This document shows, in pieces, positions 25,806-34,032 of a DNA stretch of 64,000 nt. This stretch comes from Catellatospora vulcania (GTDB taxonomy: Bacteria > Actinomycetota > Actinomycetes > Mycobacteriales > Micromonosporaceae), in assembly GCF_009720385.1 (NCBI RefSeq), contig NZ_WARX01000001.1, positions 620,001 to 684,000 of the forward strand. Direction: 5' to 3'. Positions within the stretch are counted from its first letter, which is position 1. Each line of letters begins with the position of its first letter. The position numbers and the translations under genes were made by a program. The notes under the pieces were generated by a model that saw only the letters and a list, made by a program, of their open reading frames with translations, made no database searches and was not told where the DNA came from.

Positions 25806-27869
25806 TCAGGGGGTGGCGGGGCGGAGGTGGGACAGGAGGAAGGCGATGATCTCGGCTTCGTAGTGGGCGTGGGCGTAGCGGCCGGCGGGGCCGGTGTGGG
25901 CGCCGGAGCCGAGTTCGGTGCGCAGGTAGAGGGGGCCGTCGGCGGGGCCGGCGGTGGCGCGCAGGCGGGCCACCCACTTGGCGGGCTCGTGGACCATCAC
26001 CCGTGGGTCGTGCAGCGCGCCGGTGGCCAGCAGCGCCGGGCGCGGGCCCTGCGGCAGGTGGTTGTACGGGGAGTACGCCCACATCCAGTCGAACTCGTCG
26101 GGCTTTCGCGGGTCGCCCCACTCGTCCCACTCGTTGACGGTCAGCGGGATGTCCGGGTCCAGCATCGTCGTGATCACGTCCACGAACGGCACCTCCGCGA
26201 CGACCGCGGCCCAGCGCCCGGGGCGTTGCGTGTAGACCGCGCCCTGCAGCAGGCCACCGGCCGACAGACCCCGGGTGGCCAGCCGGGACCCGTCGGCGAT
26301 GCCGTCGGCCAGCCAGTCGGCCACGGCCAGGTGGTCGGTGAAGGTGTTGGCCTTCGCCGCGAGGTGGCCGTCGTGCCACCACCGGCGGCCGTTCTCGCCG
26401 CCGCCGCGCGGGTGGGTCAGCGCGTACACCACGCCGCGGTCCAGCAGGCTGGGCAGCACCGGGTCGAACTCCGGGTCCAGCACGGACTCGTAGGCGCCGT
26501 AGCCGTAGAGCAGGGCGGGGGCGGTGCCGTCGAGCGGGGTGTCCGCGCGCCAGGCCAGCGTCACCGGCACGGCGGTGCCGTCCGGGGCGGTGGCGTGCCG
26601 CCGCGCGGTCCGGTACGCCGCGGCGTCGTAGCCTGGCAGCTCGCGGTGTTTGCGCAGCTCACGTTCGCCGGTGCACAGGTCGACGGAGTGCCAGGACGGC
26701 GGTTCGACCAGGGATTCGACGACGACCGTGACGGTGGTGTCGCCGTACTCCACCGGGGTGGCCAGCCGGACGTGTCCGGCATCGATCTCCGCGTCGATCT
26801 CGACCACGGCCCCGGTCGCCCGGTCCACGGCACGCAGCAGCGGGAAGCCGTCGCGGCGCAGCTCGACCAGCCAGTGCCGGCGCAGCGCGTGGCAGGCGGT
26901 GACCCGCTCGCCCGCACGGGGCGCGAGCAGTTCGGTCCAGTGCTCCGGGCCGGGGGTCTGCACCGGCGCGGACATCACCCGGAACTCGGGCGCGCCGTCG
27001 TCGGTGACGATGACCAGCCGCCCGTCGGCGTGGTCGACGCGGTAGTCGACGCCCTTGCGCCGCGGCGCGACGAGCCGCGGCGCGGCCTCCGGGGCGTCGG
27101 CGGGGATGAGCCGCCACTCGGCGGTGTCCCGGCTGCGCGCCTCGATCATGATCCACCGCAGGTCCCGGGTGGCCTGCACGGTGAGCTCGAACCGGGCGTC
27201 GTCCTCCTGCAAGACCAGCACGTCCGCCTCGGGCGGGGTGCCGAGGACGTGCCGCCAGACCTGGTGGGGGCGGAACAGCTCGTCGTGCACGGTGTAGAAG
27301 AACGTGCCCGAGTCCGCGCTCCACGCGCCGGTGTAGTACGTACGCGGCAGCTCCTCCGAAAGGTCAGTCAACGTCGCCAACTGGAGGAACTTCAATCGAT
27401 AGACCTCGTCGCCGGTGGTATCCACTGAGTACGCCAGGAGCGTGTTGTCGGGGCTCAGCTCCCGCAACCCGATCTCGGCGAACCCGTCGGGACCCGCCAG
27501 CCGGGCCCCGTCGAGCAGCACCCGGTCGGAGTCGCCGTCATGACCAGCTTGTAAGAACTGCTCGTACTCACTTCCCGCAACGGTTCGGGTGTAGTAGAAA
27601 CGTGAACCATGTCTCCAACTGACTGAGCTATCAGTCGGAAGGAGGCGTCGCTCCACCTCGTGAAAGACCTCGGTCTGGAGGCCCTCCAGCCGGTTCGCGG
27701 CGGCATCGTAGTACTCGCGCTCAGCGCGCAGGTAGGCGAGAAACCGCGGGTCGGAGTGGTCGCGCATCCACCCGTAATCGTCGGTCCACCGGCGTCCGTG
27801 CAGCTCGCGCTCGCAGGGCTCGCTCGGGGCGACCGGCGGGACGTCGATGTTGTCGAGATCGTGCGGCAT
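25806..27869 (-). CDS. S9A serine peptidase, oligopeptidase B-like
   Basis: Cytoplasmic peptidase of 687 residues that cleaves short peptides, typically after basic residues. A beta-propeller spans about 70-400. The N-terminal family region is PTDSSVSWRHGSRFYYTRTV. The alpha/beta-hydrolase domain has the nucleophile Ser in GLSAGGLLQG and the catalytic His in GSGAHTGPAGR near the C-terminus. It is divergent from an oligopeptide importer with only 48 bp between starts, which fits a role in digesting imported peptides. Codon use at about 27340-27650 contains unusual AT-ending codons. A palindrome matching one before the CocE gene lies within codons about 78-83. Confidence 0.9.
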   Translation of the reverse strand: MPHDLDNIDVPPVAPSEPCERELHGRRWTDDYGWMRDHSDPRFLAYLRAEREYYDAAANRLEGLQTEVFHEVERRLLPTDSSVSWRHGSRFYYTRTVAGSEYEQFLQAGHDGDSDRVLLDGARLAGPDGFAEIGLRELSPDNTLLAYSVDTTGDEVYRLKFLQLATLTDLSEELPRTYYTGAWSADSGTFFYTVHDELFRPHQVWRHVLGTPPEADVLVLQEDDARFELTVQATRDLRWIMIEARSRDTAEWRLIPADAPEAAPRLVAPRRKGVDYRVDHADGRLVIVTDDGAPEFRVMSAPVQTPGPEHWTELLAPRAGERVTACHALRRHWLVELRRDGFPLLRAVDRATGAVVEIDAEIDAGHVRLATPVEYGDTTVTVVVESLVEPPSWHSVDLCTGERELRKHRELPGYDAAAYRTARRHATAPDGTAVPVTLAWRADTPLDGTAPALLYGYGAYESVLDPEFDPVLPSLLDRGVVYALTHPRGGGENGRRWWHDGHLAAKANTFTDHLAVADWLADGIADGSRLATRGLSAGGLLQGAVYTQRPGRWAAVVAEVPFVDVITTMLDPDIPLTVNEWDEWGDPRKPDEFDWMWAYSPYNHLPQGPRPALLATGALHDPRVMVHEPAKWVARLRATAGPADGPLYLRTELGSGAHTGPAGRYAHAHYEAEIIAFLLSHLRPATP
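27621..27636. promoter_or_regulatory. palindrome within the 5' part of the S9 peptidase gene
   Basis: GACTGA-GCTA-TCAGTC, nearly identical to the site at 47932-47949 (TGACTGAGTCATCAGTCA). It is inside coding sequence (PTDSSVSW), about 280 bp from the divergent binding-protein start, so it may be coincidental. Confidence 0.3.
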
Positions 27870-27917: not shown

Positions 27918-29798
27918 ATGAGCAGCACCCCTCCTGCTCCAACGTCCTGGTTGACCAATCAGTCAGTGCGCCGGTTGCGCACCGGGGTGGCGCTGGCGGC
28001 CGCGGCCGCGCTGGCCGCACTCGGCGCCCTTGCCTCGCCTGCCGCCGCCGACGGGACGCCCACCCCGGGCTCCTCCGCGGAACGCAGCAAGACCAGCTTC
28101 GTCATCGGCGTGAAGCAGGACATCGACTCGCTCAACCCGTACGTGGGTGTCGTCGCCAGCGCGTTCGAGACCTACCAGCTGATGTACGACTACCTCACCA
28201 CCTCCAGCGCCGGCGACTTCTCCCCGCAGGCGTGGCTGGCCGAGAAGTGGGAGACCTCGGCGGACGGCAAGACCTGGACGTTCCACATCCGCAAGGGCGT
28301 GAAGTGGTCCGACGGCGTCGACCTGACCGCCAAGGACGTGGTCTACACGTTCCAGCGGGCCAAGGACGACGAGACGGCCAACGGCCAGTACAGCAGCTAC
28401 GTCGACGGCATCACGAAGATCAGCGCCACCGACGACCACACCGTCGTGATGGTGACCGAGAACCCCAGCCCGATCATGCTGCGGCTCGCCGTGCCGATCC
28501 TCCCGGAGCACATCTGGTCGAAGATCAGCGACAAGGACGCCGCCACGTTCGCCAACGACAAGAACGTGGTCGGCTCCGGCCCGTTCGAGCTGGCGGAGGC
28601 GAAGAAGGGGCAGTTCTACCGGTTCACGGCCAACAAGCAGCACTTCGCCGGCGCACCGAAGATCGATGAGCTGATCTTCACGGTGTTCGCCGACGACTCG
28701 GCGCTGTCCCAGGCGCTGAAGCAGGGCGAGATCGACATGGCCCAGGACCTGCCCGCGGCCATCGCCGACACGCTGGTGAACACCCCTGGCATCACCGTCA
28801 ACGACGCCAAGTACTACGGCTTCAACGAGATCGGCTACAACCTCGGCGCCGAGACCACCGACGGCAAGGCGATCGGCGACGGCCACCCGGCGCTCAAGGA
28901 CAAGCAGGTCCGGCTCGCCATCGACCACGCCATCGACCGCAAGACGCTGGTGTCGAAGGTGCTCAGCGGCCACGGCACCACCGCCACCGGGGTCATCCCG
29001 CCGATCTACGCCGACATGCACTGGAACCCGGGCTCGGCCGAGCGCGCGTTCGACCTGGCCAAGGCGAACTCGATCCTGGACGCGGCGGGCTACGCCAAGG
29101 GGGCCGACGGCATCCGGGCCAAGGACGGCAAGGCGCTGAAGTTCCGCCTGTTCGGCCGGGACAGCTCCGAGTACTCCAAGCAGAGCACCGAGTACGTGCG
29201 CTCCTGGCTCAAGGAGATCGGCATCGACGCGGTCGTGTCGATCATGAGTGAGGACAACCTGACCGCGGTGCTCGGCAAGGGCGAGTTCGACCTGTTCGAG
29301 TGGGGCTGGGTCGTCGAGCCCGACCCCGACTTCCAGCTCTCCGTGATGACCTGCGACCAGCGGTCGTACGAAGAGGACGGCGAGATCGCCGCGGGCTGGT
29401 CGGACAGCTTCTACTGCAACGAGGCGTTCGACAAGCTGTACGCCCAGCAGCAGGCGATGATCGACGCCAAGGCCCGCGCCGAGGTCGTCAAGCAGGCGCA
29501 GCAGATCCTGTACGACGACGTCGCCTACTCGCTGACCTACTACTACAACCAGACCGAGGCGTACCGGTCGGACCGGTTCACCGGCTTCGTGCCGCAGCCG
29601 TCCAACGGCGGCATCCTCGCCTTCCAGTACGGCACGCACAGCTACCGCAACATCGCTCCGGTCGCCGAGAAGGCGGCCGACGAAGGCTCCGGCTCGGGCG
29701 TCGTGCTCTACGTCGTCGGCGGCGTGGTGCTGCTGGTGGTCGTGGCCGGAGTGGTGCTGGTGCTGGTCCGGCGCAAGAGCGCGGACGACCGGGAATGA
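27918..29798 (+). CDS. oligopeptide ABC transporter substrate-binding protein with C-terminal membrane anchor
   Basis: Extracellular binding protein of the SBP_bac_5 family, 626 residues. The ATG at 27918 has AAGGAGAG upstream; longer in-frame extensions are not needed. A signal segment at about 20-50 (VALAAAAALAALGALASPAAA) has no lipobox Cys. The ligand-binding domain spans about 60-580 (IDSLNPYVGV, DGKTWTFHIRKGVKWSDG). The end carries a membrane helix VVLYVVGGVVLLVVVAGVVL followed by RRK, so the protein is held by a C-terminal anchor and not by lipid. First gene of the importer operon. Confidence 0.93.
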   Translation: MSSTPPAPTSWLTNQSVRRLRTGVALAAAAALAALGALASPAAADGTPTPGSSAERSKTSFVIGVKQDIDSLNPYVGVVASAFETYQLMYDYLTTSSAGDFSPQAWLAEKWETSADGKTWTFHIRKGVKWSDGVDLTAKDVVYTFQRAKDDETANGQYSSYVDGITKISATDDHTVVMVTENPSPIMLRLAVPILPEHIWSKISDKDAATFANDKNVVGSGPFELAEAKKGQFYRFTANKQHFAGAPKIDELIFTVFADDSALSQALKQGEIDMAQDLPAAIADTLVNTPGITVNDAKYYGFNEIGYNLGAETTDGKAIGDGHPALKDKQVRLAIDHAIDRKTLVSKVLSGHGTTATGVIPPIYADMHWNPGSAERAFDLAKANSILDAAGYAKGADGIRAKDGKALKFRLFGRDSSEYSKQSTEYVRSWLKEIGIDAVVSIMSEDNLTAVLGKGEFDLFEWGWVVEPDPDFQLSVMTCDQRSYEEDGEIAAGWSDSFYCNEAFDKLYAQQQAMIDAKARAEVVKQAQQILYDDVAYSLTYYYNQTEAYRSDRFTGFVPQPSNGGILAFQYGTHSYRNIAPVAEKAADEGSGSGVVLYVVGGVVLLVVVAGVVLVLVRRKSADDRE

Positions 29799-30808: not shown

Positions 30809-31695
30809 GCGCGCTCGCGGCGGCCGCCCCGCGCCGGCGGGCGAGCGCGTGGCGGGCCTTCCTGCGCGACCGGGAGGGTATGTCCGGCCTGATCGTGCTG
30901 ACCCTGTTCGGCCTGGTGGCGATCTTCGCGTCGCTGCTGGCCGACCCCGCCGGGCTGGAGGTCACCAAGGCCGACGGCCCGCTCGCGGCCGCGCCGTCGT
31001 GGGAGTACCCGCTCGGCACCGACCACGCGGGCCGCTCGGTGCTGACCATGGTCATCCACGGCAGCCAGGTGACCCTGCTGGTCGGCCTGGCCGCCACGGT
31101 CATCTCGATGCTGCTGGGCACCCTGATCGGCATCACGTCCGGGCACTTCAGCGGCCTGTTCGGCGGCGCGCTGAACAGATTCACCGAGTGGTTCCTGGTC
31201 ATCCCGTACCTGCCGCTGGCCATCGTGCTGGCGACGGTGTTCCCCGCGGACGTGCCCAAACTGATCGCGGTGATCATCGTGATCGGCGTGACGTCGTGGT
31301 CGGGCACGGCGCGGCTGGTCCGGGCGCAGACGATGGCCATCGAGGCCCGCCCCTACCTGGAACGGGCCAAGGCGCTCGGCGGCGGGCACTGGCACCAGAT
31401 GACCCGGCACGTGCTGCCCAACGTCATGCCGCTGGTGCTGGCCAACACCACGCTGACCGTGTCCATCGCCATCATCGCCGAGACCACGCTGTCGTTCCTC
31501 GGCCTGGGCGACCCGCTGCGGGTCTCCTGGGGACGGGTGCTCGACGAGGCGTACGCCCTCGGCGCGATCGATCGCGGCGCCTGGTGGTGGGTGCTCGGCC
31601 CCGGCGTCGCCGTGGTGCTGGTGGTCCGCGCCTTCAACATGTGCGGCCGGGCGCTGGAACGCATCCTCGACCCGCGGCTGGAGGGCAGGTCATGA
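30805..31695 (+). CDS. oligopeptide ABC transporter permease, DppC-like
   Basis: Permease of 296 residues. The N-terminal OppC_N-type helix is LIVLTLFGLVAIFASLLAD, followed by the GTDHAGRSVLTMVIHG motif typical of DppC. The docking loop is ERAKALGGGHWHQMTRHVLPN. Coupled to the upstream permease by ATGA and to the ATPase gene by ATGA. Confidence 0.94.
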   Translation: MSALAAAAPRRRASAWRAFLRDREGMSGLIVLTLFGLVAIFASLLADPAGLEVTKADGPLAAAPSWEYPLGTDHAGRSVLTMVIHGSQVTLLVGLAATVISMLLGTLIGITSGHFSGLFGGALNRFTEWFLVIPYLPLAIVLATVFPADVPKLIAVIIVIGVTSWSGTARLVRAQTMAIEARPYLERAKALGGGHWHQMTRHVLPNVMPLVLANTTLTVSIAIIAETTLSFLGLGDPLRVSWGRVLDEAYALGAIDRGAWWWVLGPGVAVVLVVRAFNMCGRALERILDPRLEGRS

Positions 31696-32747
31696 ACGGC
31701 GAGCAGCGAGACCCGCAAGCGGGAACGGTCGACGGCCCCGGTGCGGCACGGGTTCCGCGCCCGCGGACCGCGGGCGGCACCGGCCTGCTGCAGATCAGAG
31801 ACCTGCGGGTGTCCTACCGGGACCGGGGCGTGCCGCTTCCTGCCGTGCGCGGGGTGGACCTCACGCTCGCGGCGGGGGAGACGCTCGGGCTGGCCGGGGA
31901 GTCCGGCTGCGGCAAGTCGACGCTGGCGGGCGCGCTGCTGCGGCTGCTGCCCGGCAACGCCGAGGTGTCCGGCGAGATCCTGCTCAACGGCAGCGACGTG
32001 CTGAAGATGAGCTGGGGACGGCTGCGTGCGGTGCGCTGGAACGAGGCGTCGATCGTGTTCCAGGGGGCGATGCACGCGCTCAACCCGGTGCGCAGCATCG
32101 GCCGCCAGATCGCCGAGGCGATCGTGCTGCACGCCCCGAAGTCGTCCGCGGCCACCGCCCGCAAGCAGGTCGGCGAGCTGCTGGAGCAGGTGGGCGTGCC
32201 GGCGTGGCGGGCCGAGTCCTACCCGCACGAGCTGTCCGGCGGGCAGAAGCAGCGCGTCATGATCGCGATGGCGCTGGCCTGCTCACCACAGCTGATCATC
32301 GCGGACGAGCCGACCACCGCGCTCGACGTGATGGTGCAGGCCCAGGTGCTGACGCTGCTCAAGCAACTGGTCCAGGAGCGGGGCGTCGGCCTGATCCTGA
32401 TCAGCCACGACCTGTCGGTCCTCGCGTCGACCTGTGACCGCGTCGCCGTGATGTACGCGGGCCGGATCGTCGAGCAGGGGCCGGGGCACCGGCTGTTCGC
32501 CGACGCCGCCCACCCGTACGCCCAGGCGCTGGCCGCGGCGTTCCCGGTGATCGGCGACATGGCGTCCCGCCGCGCCCCGCGCGGCCTGCCCGGCGACCCG
32601 CCGGACCCGCGCGAGCTGGGCGGCGGCTGCGCCTTCGCGCCCCGCTGCCCGGTCGCCGTGGCGGAGTGCGTCGAGTACGACATCCGGCTGCGCACGGTCG
32701 ACACCGAGCGCAGCGCCGCCTGTGTGCACGTGGGGGTCCCGGCATGA
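31692..32747 (+). CDS. oligopeptide ABC transporter ATP-binding protein, DppD-like
   Basis: ATPase of 351 residues. Walker A GESGCGKST, signature LSGGQKQRV, Walker B LIIADEPTTALD, switch His in LISHDLS. The C-terminal oligopeptide-type extension has the Cys cluster GGCAFAPRCPVAVAEC, which in this family can bind an iron-sulfur cluster. A 30-residue Pro/Arg/Gly-rich N-terminus precedes the domain. The stop overlaps the ATG of a 12-codon mini-ORF and not the ATG of the next ATPase. Confidence 0.94.
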   Translation: MNGEQRDPQAGTVDGPGAARVPRPRTAGGTGLLQIRDLRVSYRDRGVPLPAVRGVDLTLAAGETLGLAGESGCGKSTLAGALLRLLPGNAEVSGEILLNGSDVLKMSWGRLRAVRWNEASIVFQGAMHALNPVRSIGRQIAEAIVLHAPKSSAATARKQVGELLEQVGVPAWRAESYPHELSGGQKQRVMIAMALACSPQLIIADEPTTALDVMVQAQVLTLLKQLVQERGVGLILISHDLSVLASTCDRVAVMYAGRIVEQGPGHRLFADAAHPYAQALAAAFPVIGDMASRRAPRGLPGDPPDPRELGGGCAFAPRCPVAVAECVEYDIRLRTVDTERSAACVHVGVPA

Positions 32748-32782
32748 GCGAGCTTGGCGAGCGAAGCGAGGAGCAGGCATGA
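32744..32782 (+). other. micro-element: 12-codon mini-ORF bridging two coupled genes
   Basis: Reads MSELGERSEEQA then stop. Its ATG overlaps the DppD-like stop (ATGA at 32744) and its TGA overlaps the DppF-like start (ATGA at 32779). It contains GAGGAGC, a ribosome site for the next gene. GGCATGAG occurs at both ends, as if a 35-bp unit had been inserted into an original ATGA overlap. The inner repeats GCGAGCTTGGCGAGCG and GAAGCGAG give it a stem-forming, repetitive character. Whether the peptide is made is unknown. Confidence 0.6.
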
Positions 32783-33822
32783 GTGTCTCGCTGCATCCGG
32801 TGCTGGAGGCGCGGAACCTGCACGTCGGGTTCGGCGGGCGCGGCAAGGGCGTGCCGCCGGTGCGTGCGGTCGACGGGGTCGAGCTGTCCGTCGACCGGGG
32901 GCAGATCGTCGCGCTGGCCGGGGAGTCGGGCAGCGGCAAGACGACGCTGGCCCGCACCCTGCTGGGCCTGCAGCGGCCGAACGAGGGCCAGGTGCTGCAC
33001 CACGGCAGGCCGCTGGACTACAGCAGCCGCGGTCTCAAGGCGCTGCGGCGCAAGGTCCAGCTGGTGCTGCAGGACCCGACCGGCGCGCTCAACCCGCGCC
33101 GCACCGTGTACGAGGCCGTGGCCGAAGGGCTGCGTATCCACAAAGTGCCCGGCAACGAGCGGGAGCTGGTCGCCAAGGCGCTGTCGCAGGCCGGGCTGCG
33201 GCCGGCCGAGCGCTTCTTCCAGCGGTATCCGCACGAGCTGTCCGGCGGCCAGCGCCAGCGCGTCGTCATCGCGGGTGCGCTGGTGCTGGAACCCGAGCTG
33301 ATCATCGCCGACGAGCCGGTGGCCTCCCTGGACGCCTCGGTGCGCGGCGAGATCCTCGCGCTGCTGCTGTCGCTGCGCGACGAGCTTGGCCTGTCCGTGC
33401 TGGTCGTCACGCACGACCTCGGGCTGGCCTGGAACATCGCCGACCGGCTCGCGGTGATGTACCTCGGCCGCATCGTCGAGGTCGGCCGGACCGAGCAGGT
33501 GCTCGCCGCTCCGAAGCACCCGTACACCGCGGCGCTGGTGTCGGTGCTGCCGGAGGCCACCGGCCGTACCCCCGTGATCCTGTCCGGCGAGTCGCCGGAC
33601 CCGTCGCGGATCCCGGCCGGCTGCCGCTTCCACCCGCGCTGCCCGGCGCTGGCCAGTGGTCTCGCGCAGCGGGCCGGCATCGCCGACCGGTGCGTCGGCG
33701 AGACGCTGCCGGTGCTGCCGCTGCACGGCCCGCACGCCGCCGCCTGCCTGCTGTCAGGCCACATCGGCGACGGCATCGCCGGTGCGGCCGGCGGCTCGCC
33801 GACCGGTCTGCTGTCGGCCTGA
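32779..33822 (+). CDS. oligopeptide ABC transporter ATP-binding protein, DppF-like
   Basis: Second ATPase of the heterodimer, 347 residues from the ATG at 32779 (GAGGAGC upstream). Walker A GESGSGKTT, signature LSGGQRQRV, Walker B LIIADEPVASLD, switch His in VVTHDLG. The C-terminal motif has Cys residues in AGCRFHPRCPAL. It ends the five-gene operon; hairpin C2 follows 35 bp after the stop. Unlike the other three junctions in the operon it is not directly overlapped with the gene before it. Confidence 0.94.
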   Translation: MSVSLHPVLEARNLHVGFGGRGKGVPPVRAVDGVELSVDRGQIVALAGESGSGKTTLARTLLGLQRPNEGQVLHHGRPLDYSSRGLKALRRKVQLVLQDPTGALNPRRTVYEAVAEGLRIHKVPGNERELVAKALSQAGLRPAERFFQRYPHELSGGQRQRVVIAGALVLEPELIIADEPVASLDASVRGEILALLLSLRDELGLSVLVVTHDLGLAWNIADRLAVMYLGRIVEVGRTEQVLAAPKHPYTAALVSVLPEATGRTPVILSGESPDPSRIPAGCRFHPRCPALASGLAQRAGIADRCVGETLPVLPLHGPHAAACLLSGHIGDGIAGAAGGSPTGLLSA

Positions 33823-33857
33823 CCAGCGGTCCCGCTGGGCTACCGCATGGTGCGGGA

Positions 33858-33932
33858 CGGTGATGATCGCTGTTTCGTGTCGAAAAGTGTGGTGGCACCT
33901 CACTTCTGTGCACGAAACAGCGATCATCACCG
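33858..33932. repeat. dispersed palindrome family C, copy 2
   Basis: 22-bp arms CGGTGATGATCGCTGTTTCG... and ...CGAAACAGCGATCATCACCG around a 31-nt centre that itself has weak symmetry (AAGTG / CACTT). It shares GATCGCYGTTTCGTG with copy 1 at 21076. Located at the end of the peptide importer operon; a probable terminator. Confidence 0.85.
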
Positions 33933-34032
33933 TCGGCGTACGGGAGGCGAGGCTGCCGCCGGATAACCGGGAGACGCTGCCGGGGTGGTGCCATAGGGTC
34001 GGGTTTCGGCGCGGTGCGGTCGGGGGGCGCAG

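Follow-up and report, generated by a model that had tools for sequence, protein, structure and literature searches.

Why should a reading frame of only 12 codons stand between two genes of an operon whose three earlier junctions, at 29795, 30805 and 31692, are ATGA overlaps? The question arises at the dppD–dppF junction of Catellatospora vulcania, in a 64-kb stretch of DNA that we analysed as a whole (the window; coordinates without a contig name refer to it, and features lie on the plus strand unless stated). Pfam matches to SBP_bac_5, to BPD_transp_1 (two) and to ABC_tran with oligo_HPY (two) identify the genes as a Dpp/Opp-type importer operon. The DppD-like ABC ATPase gene (31692–32747; ORF and Pfam) ends with a TGA inside a left ATGA (32744–32747), which opens the mini-ORF MSELGERSEEQA (32744–32782, stop codon included; 35 bp between both ATGs). 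The TGA of the mini-ORF in turn overlaps the ATG of the DppF-like ABC ATPase gene (32779–33822; ORF and Pfam) in a second ATGA at 32779–32782, and GGCATGAG is present at both junctions (32741–32748 and 32776–32783). Within the mini-ORF lies a Shine-Dalgarno-like GAGGAG (32768–32773; GAGGAGC, 32768–32774), whose GGAG is 5 nt ahead of the dppF ATG. The initial annotation had described a 12-codon mini-ORF, ATGA-coupled on both sides and with GGCATGAG at both ends, and the sequence and ORF check found this description exact. Just 3′ of dppF, at 33856–33934, lies an inverted repeat of 39 nt (1-nt gap, 87% complementarity), which could be a terminator or a palindromic repeat of its own.

Copies of a related sequence occur throughout the genome. 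The 18-mer GAGCGAGCTTGGCGAGCG, which the initial annotation had proposed as a search string, was too narrow, with a single exact match in the 8.83-Mb genome of C. vulcania (G000). The looser GAGCGAGCNNNGCGAGCG, with at most one mismatch, gave 58 matches in this genome vs 29 for a reversed control. Most of the 33 inspected loci of this string were the left end of a longer unit, e.g. ATGAGCGAGCGCAGCGAGCGAATCATG...GCCGCCGACGAGCGCAGCGAGGAGAAGGCATGA, which encodes MSERSERIM...AADERSEEKA followed by a stop and has DTGA at each end; the loci of the genome yielded 26 distinct mini-ORFs of this type. An element profile (a sequence-only model built on 24 full copies) found 117 matches at E ≤ 1 in the same genome, 84 of them at E < 1e-3, including the window copy, which was matched at 32751–32782 (E = 5.2e-6 in the search of the window and 7.4e-4 in the genome search). 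The matches to GAGCGAGCNNNGCGAGCG, compared with their control, and those to the profile rule out a unique micro-duplication. Another match in the window, at 27808 on the minus strand, was rejected as a chance hit lying inside the coding part of ORF 25806–27869.

Context was counted on the 84 matches at E < 1e-3 out of the 117. Of these 84, 80 had a right DTGA, 69 were followed by an ORF of 60 codons or more, 57 were preceded by an ORF of such length that ends at the left DTGA, and 47 had both ORFs, although the last two counts lean high because the left DTGA was taken as the best among several candidates. As background, 1209 other DTGA sites in the 3-kb loci of this genome had a downstream ORF in 56% of cases, an upstream ORF in 22% and both in 11%. 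No in-frame left DTGA was present in 16 of the 84 matches, including two among the 30 strongest. Reading frame was preserved in the near-full matches: in 57 of 63 the length is divisible by three, in five length classes that span 69–81 nt (start to stop), and the mini-ORF is intact in 55 of 63. The full element in C. vulcania is commonly 68–74 bp and usually forms a DTGA–mini-ORF–DTGA relay between co-oriented genes, with a mini-ORF mostly of 23–25 codons coupled by 4-nt overlaps on both sides; copies were also found in tandem. The 35-bp sequence at dppD–dppF, which had been taken for the mobile unit, is instead a short form of a family whose common unit carries two hairpins.

The initial annotation knew of no named feature type of this design. 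In the accessible text of a review (PMC12548453), MIRUs of mycobacteria are described in these same terms, citing Supply et al (1997): interspersed, apparently mobile, placed at start codons, and with an internal ORF coupled at −4 nt; the kind of element is therefore already named. The accessible part of PMC2734929 gives MIRUs a size of 40–100 bp and 41 locations in M. tuberculosis. Like MIRUs, the Catellatospora family is a short interspersed repeat at many loci (the 84 matches, the window copy itself being 35 bp), inserts at start codons and shows the same −4 nt coupling of an internal ORF (apart from the 16 matches without an in-frame left DTGA), occurs in tandem copies of variable number and is apparently mobile, as judged from this variation and from orthologous sites that lack it. 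The host is Catellatospora and not a mycobacterium, and we therefore call the family MIRU-type rather than MIRU, and the element a MIRU-type element outside mycobacteria. A literature search covering titles, abstract openings and few subscription papers returned no report of MIRU-like elements outside mycobacteria.

For a direct comparison we used what we take to be the MIRU motif as a probe in g51, a genus of another family of the order that is probably Mycobacterium. The motif was found in 70 of 148 g51 genomes, the reversed control being absent from the genomes listed, and neighbouring copies were often 46–55 bp apart. In 29 of 36 motif copies a DTGA followed 15–45 nt downstream; 16 of the 36 had an in-frame mini-ORF, such as MSRAGDDAERSDEEERRA followed by a stop, and in seven there was, in addition, an ORF of 60 codons or more upstream. 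The element profile matched the motif in 25 of 25 scanned g51 loci (of 30), although weakly (10.5–17.4 bits, E from 4e-4 to 0.05), and three other matches scored 10.0–10.4 bits. Both kinds of repeat have the core GAGCGNAGCGA(T)GAG in common. They differ in spacing, about 46–55 bp in g51 vs a 68–74 bp unit with two hairpins in Catellatospora, and in the mini-peptide, MSRAGDDAERSDEEERRA vs MSERSERI...AADERSEEKA.

Across the Micromonosporaceae, element matches at E ≤ 0.01 were obtained in 84 of 101 genomes and 40 of 44 genera. At E ≤ 1e-4, the order yielded 78 of 249 genomes; 43 of these belong to nine families other than the Micromonosporaceae, many of them with just one weak match. Only 3 of 198 genomes in a phylum sample, searched with filters that lose weak matches, were positive (C. 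vulcania itself, one genome of the same order and one weak match outside the order). The DTGA–mini-ORF–DTGA arrangement was present at the match in 28 of 34 loci, 30 of them from five other families and four from Micromonosporaceae, and missing at L339, L342, L345, L348, L354 and L359. We consider it probable that the mini-ORF element at dppD–dppF belongs, as a shortened copy, to a MIRU-type repeat family that spans the Micromonosporaceae and families related to them; this best explanation includes the hairpin-gated relay described below.

Two other known systems resemble the element in part. REP/BIME sequences are dispersed imperfect hairpins in pairs that go with RAYT (Y1 HUH) transposases. 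The Catellatospora element has such dispersed, imperfect, paired hairpins, but it sits in stop/start overlaps, carries an ORF and resides in a genome that gave no Y1_Tnp match; the associated Y1 transposase that marks REP/RAYT or IS200/IS605 systems was not found there, and a Y1/RAYT transposase was rejected as the driver in this genome. One or more Y1_Tnp matches were present in 6 of 11 genus genomes, and the nine loci in total contained one weak element match (E = 0.04). The upstream ORFs of bicistronic designs, which according to the accessible text of PMC12548453 are thought only to bring the ribosome to the next start, are likewise short ORFs delivering a ribosome to a coupled gene. In contrast to these, the Catellatospora element is a dispersed intra-operon family with two-sided coupling and, in full copies, a hairpin over the downstream start.

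The initial annotation had also suggested testing orthologous dppD–dppF junctions with and without the element. Both forms were found and the insertion-coupling idea survives this test. The closest named dppF orthologs are those of Catellatospora coxensis (93%) and C. paridis (81%). The gene was recovered at E ≤ 1e-90 in 10 of 11 Catellatospora genomes, and the stop/start relay at dppD–dppF was unbroken in all ten. Six have a direct ATGA (G103, G104, G105, G016, G101 and G087) and four a single mini-ORF, of 12 codons in C. vulcania and of 21 codons, in two other sequence types, in G102, G051 and G071. In G051 and G071 (L176 and L177) the mini-ORF is of another type, MNARVLTSA.DDGAERSEA.A, and may be a diverged copy or a separate insertion. 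Inspection by eye of the listed Streptomyces dppD–dppF junctions revealed no full element.

Turnover was equally evident at other loci. We compared 30 element sites of C. vulcania, picked for having a mini-ORF, and the window site with G103 and G102. In G103, 30 of the 31 sites were comparable, and at 12 of these 30 exactly a 4-nt DTGA replaced the C. vulcania copy. Nine of the 12 had no other copy alongside; the other three had a neighbouring copy (C15:129247 and C9:124945) or a decayed element-like stretch (C25:42510), and therefore represent fewer tandem copies and not empty junctions. The remaining G103 sites mostly had one to three copies. In G102, 27 sites were comparable and four had exactly 4 nt. 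With 0–3 mini-ORFs per site (the G103 site L284 being counted as zero despite holding an element), the relay was intact in 28 of 30 sites in G103 and 22 of 27 in G102; the seven failures comprised three upstream-frame read-throughs, three non-DTGA upstream stops and one out-of-frame mini-ORF. C9:10989 and C10:139179 were occupied only in C. vulcania, whereas C3:29026 and C9:103547 were occupied in C. vulcania and G102 and absent from G103. Gains and losses of the element thus both occur. In agreement with the initial annotation, the copies across the genome and the orthologous junctions with and without them place the feature in a family of duplicated and apparently mobile cassettes that restore ATGA at each end. 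Two G103 sites, L291 (G103:C2:468116–469201) and L286 (G103:C31:81192–82272), contain three mini-ORFs where the flank-to-flank stretch of C. vulcania has one, and form a natural copy-number series.

Entry by target duplication, as the initial annotation had envisaged, is weakly indicated. Among 74 non-tandem copies, flank identity exceeded shuffles at u-1/r-5 and u-2/r-6 (reached by 1 and 0 of 500) but not at u-3, where 190 of 500 shuffles reached the observed value (25 did at u-4 and 6 at u-5). At C9:10989 the flank of the empty site does not match the right end. A clean target-site duplication was set aside, the signal being confined to few flank bases.

Full copies, unlike the window copy, appear able to form a start-codon hairpin. 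We collected 184 distinct DTGA-to-DTGA copies and used the 161 with a standard left block. When positions were ranked by mutual information, two start-codon pairs came near the top: the left D with position 23 (A–T in 116 and G–C in 27 of 161) and the right D with r-34 (T–A in 116 and C–G in 21 of 161). The Watson–Crick pairs on the right have a common sum of −38 and therefore belong to one hairpin. Across the 161 full copies, the internal arm of this hairpin shows covariation with the downstream start codon and the bases 5′ of it. The summed excess of the hairpin over shuffles was 1.07, no slid version exceeded 0.38, and all 300 shuffles were surpassed by nine of the single right-arm pairs. 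These nine, selected on the pooled set ahead of the subset test, summed to 192 pairs in the 28 copies of C. vulcania, 275 in the 39 of G087 and 393 in the mixed rest of 67, against maxima of 170, 269 and 356 in 500 shuffles, which overstate significance because the copies are related by descent. The G103 (14) and G102 (13) copies stood outside the single-subset tests, and some single pairs were uninformative within a subset (e.g. r-30:r-8 in C. vulcania and five of nine in G087). Stem mismatches were largely G opposite A, and the hairpin tip is GCGNAGC. The left hairpin is less strongly supported, with a summed excess of 0.15 vs 0.10 for one slid version, and its conservation is not countable because many columns were fixed by the copy-collecting pattern, leaving only l1:l23 and l6:l18 free. 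The first base of the mini-ORF (l1) pairs with l23 (A–T or G–C) in C. vulcania, G087 and other copies, and the bases just outside are unpaired.

Folding with RNA parameters recovered exactly the covarying structure from an idealised consensus (−16.2 kcal/mol, z = −3.7). The 161 copies averaged −17.35 kcal/mol, with a mean z of −3.2 from 40 shuffles per copy. When the 3′ arms were swapped, the mean was −13.7 kcal/mol, a cost of 3.6 kcal/mol (best of 20 rounds, −14.1), and the start codon was fully paired in 118 of 161 copies vs about 90 after swapping. With DNA energy parameters the hairpins were not favoured and the covarying structure was not recovered. What is informative for the hairpin is the right-hand 39-mer together with covariation; folding of whole copies as RNA was discarded as evidence, since one long-stem copy had z = −4.6 but another was no better than shuffles. 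The former (L016, G000:C6:158442–158516) has an altered right half that folds, start codon included, into an RNA stem of 18 bp and a loop of 3 nt, as if the stem had been corrected along a template. Folding of the window copy was unremarkable. In the literature covered (again titles, abstract openings and few subscription papers), no MIRU hairpin over a start codon was reported, and the start-codon hairpin is the part of the element that we have not seen described.

We infer that full copies act by hairpin-gated termination–reinitiation, a model that predicts translation of the mini-ORF and an effect on the next gene. A ribosome finishing the first gene at the left TGA would re-initiate on the mini-ORF and, while translating it, melt the right hairpin; the internal GGAG would hold it near the downstream start, where it would terminate in the right DTGA and then re-initiate on the second gene. 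As the next start would depend on the relay, insertion of the element into an operon would leave the genes coupled and at the same time make independent initiation harder. We give about an even chance to the view that the covarying hairpin acts as an RNA gate and enforces strict coupling. The strongest alternative, to which we give somewhat less than an even chance, is a neutral mobile passenger, in which the DTGA ends and the mini-ORF merely make insertion harmless, with no regulation, and the hairpins serve IS200/REP-like movement as single-stranded DNA. Presence/absence and changes between zero and three copies among close relatives would fit such a passenger, as would the position of both hairpins next to the DTGA ends. 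Short DNAs of sequence GCGAAGC with GNA loops are extraordinarily stable, according to the accessible text of PMC4686876, and the review text available as PMC12548453 holds that the coupling of MIRUs probably reduces the impact that their insertion has. Against it stand the recovery of the covarying structure by RNA and not DNA parameters, and the outcome for Y1_Tnp, with no match in C. vulcania and four more of the 11 genus genomes and only the one weak element match at the nine Y1 loci of the other six. A gated relay and a harmless passenger with DNA hairpins may also both be true.

An improbable further reading gives the internal anti-start arm the role of a guide, by which a single-stranded, target-matched element picks a gene junction by base pairing and then gates the start with which it is paired. 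The arm would then be complementary to the downstream DTGA and the bases around it because the target was chosen by pairing at insertion. The pairing may even extend to the first base after ATGA: d1:r-38, which involves that base, pairs in 43 of 74 copies, a value reached by 12 of 2000 shuffles, although r-43, outside the hairpin, also exceeded shuffles.

Returning to the MIRU-type copy at dppD–dppF, its composition suggests how the short form arose. Its first 22 nt (32744–32765) fit the left-hairpin block, of pattern (A/G)TGAGCGAGC-NNN-GCGAGCGAA, with one mismatch to the full copy G000:C1:272593, and its right block GAGCGAAGCGAGGAGCAGGCATGAG (32759–32783), the last 25 nt, is identical in the full copy G000:C10:187301. 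The two blocks overlap in GAGCGAA (32759–32765). Full copies have this 7-mer in their left blocks and, in some cases, in the right block too, and loss of the middle through a deletion there would therefore yield the 35-bp copy in frame. The window copy thus probably derives from an internal in-frame deletion with GAGCGAA as the proposed joint; it also contains GCGAAGC (32761–32767), the core of a GNA mini-hairpin. It keeps the relay and the Shine-Dalgarno, whereas the hairpin has apparently been lost. That this strain acquired a 35-bp element by independent insertion, and not by deletion within an older full element at the junction, is unlikely: the junction is empty in G103, the nearest relative by dppF, and the mini-ORFs of G102, G051 and G071 at the same place differ in sequence, as such an insertion would have it, but no second 36-nt mini-ORF exists among the 84 matches of the genome, and the sequence reads as left and right blocks joined at their common GAGCGAA. 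Least of all, a local event unrelated to other loci, namely a short GGCATGAG duplication plus filler at dppD–dppF, for which the single exact GAGCGAGCTTGGCGAGCG and the bare ATGA of G103 might be invoked, is extremely improbable, as the ends of the window copy match those of many full copies, the right block being identical to that at C10:187301, and the genome census of copies contradicts it.

MIRUs are used in the strain typing of tuberculosis, and their function is described in the accessible part of PMC2734929 as not well understood. The family described here provides a widespread relative in soil actinomycetes, whose junctions with zero, one, two or three copies are natural experiments on whether the relays alter the dose of the downstream gene. 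The covarying start-codon hairpin offers a concrete and testable structure for how they might alter that dose. It may also be a clue to how elements that lack an obvious transposase end up in stop/start overlaps.
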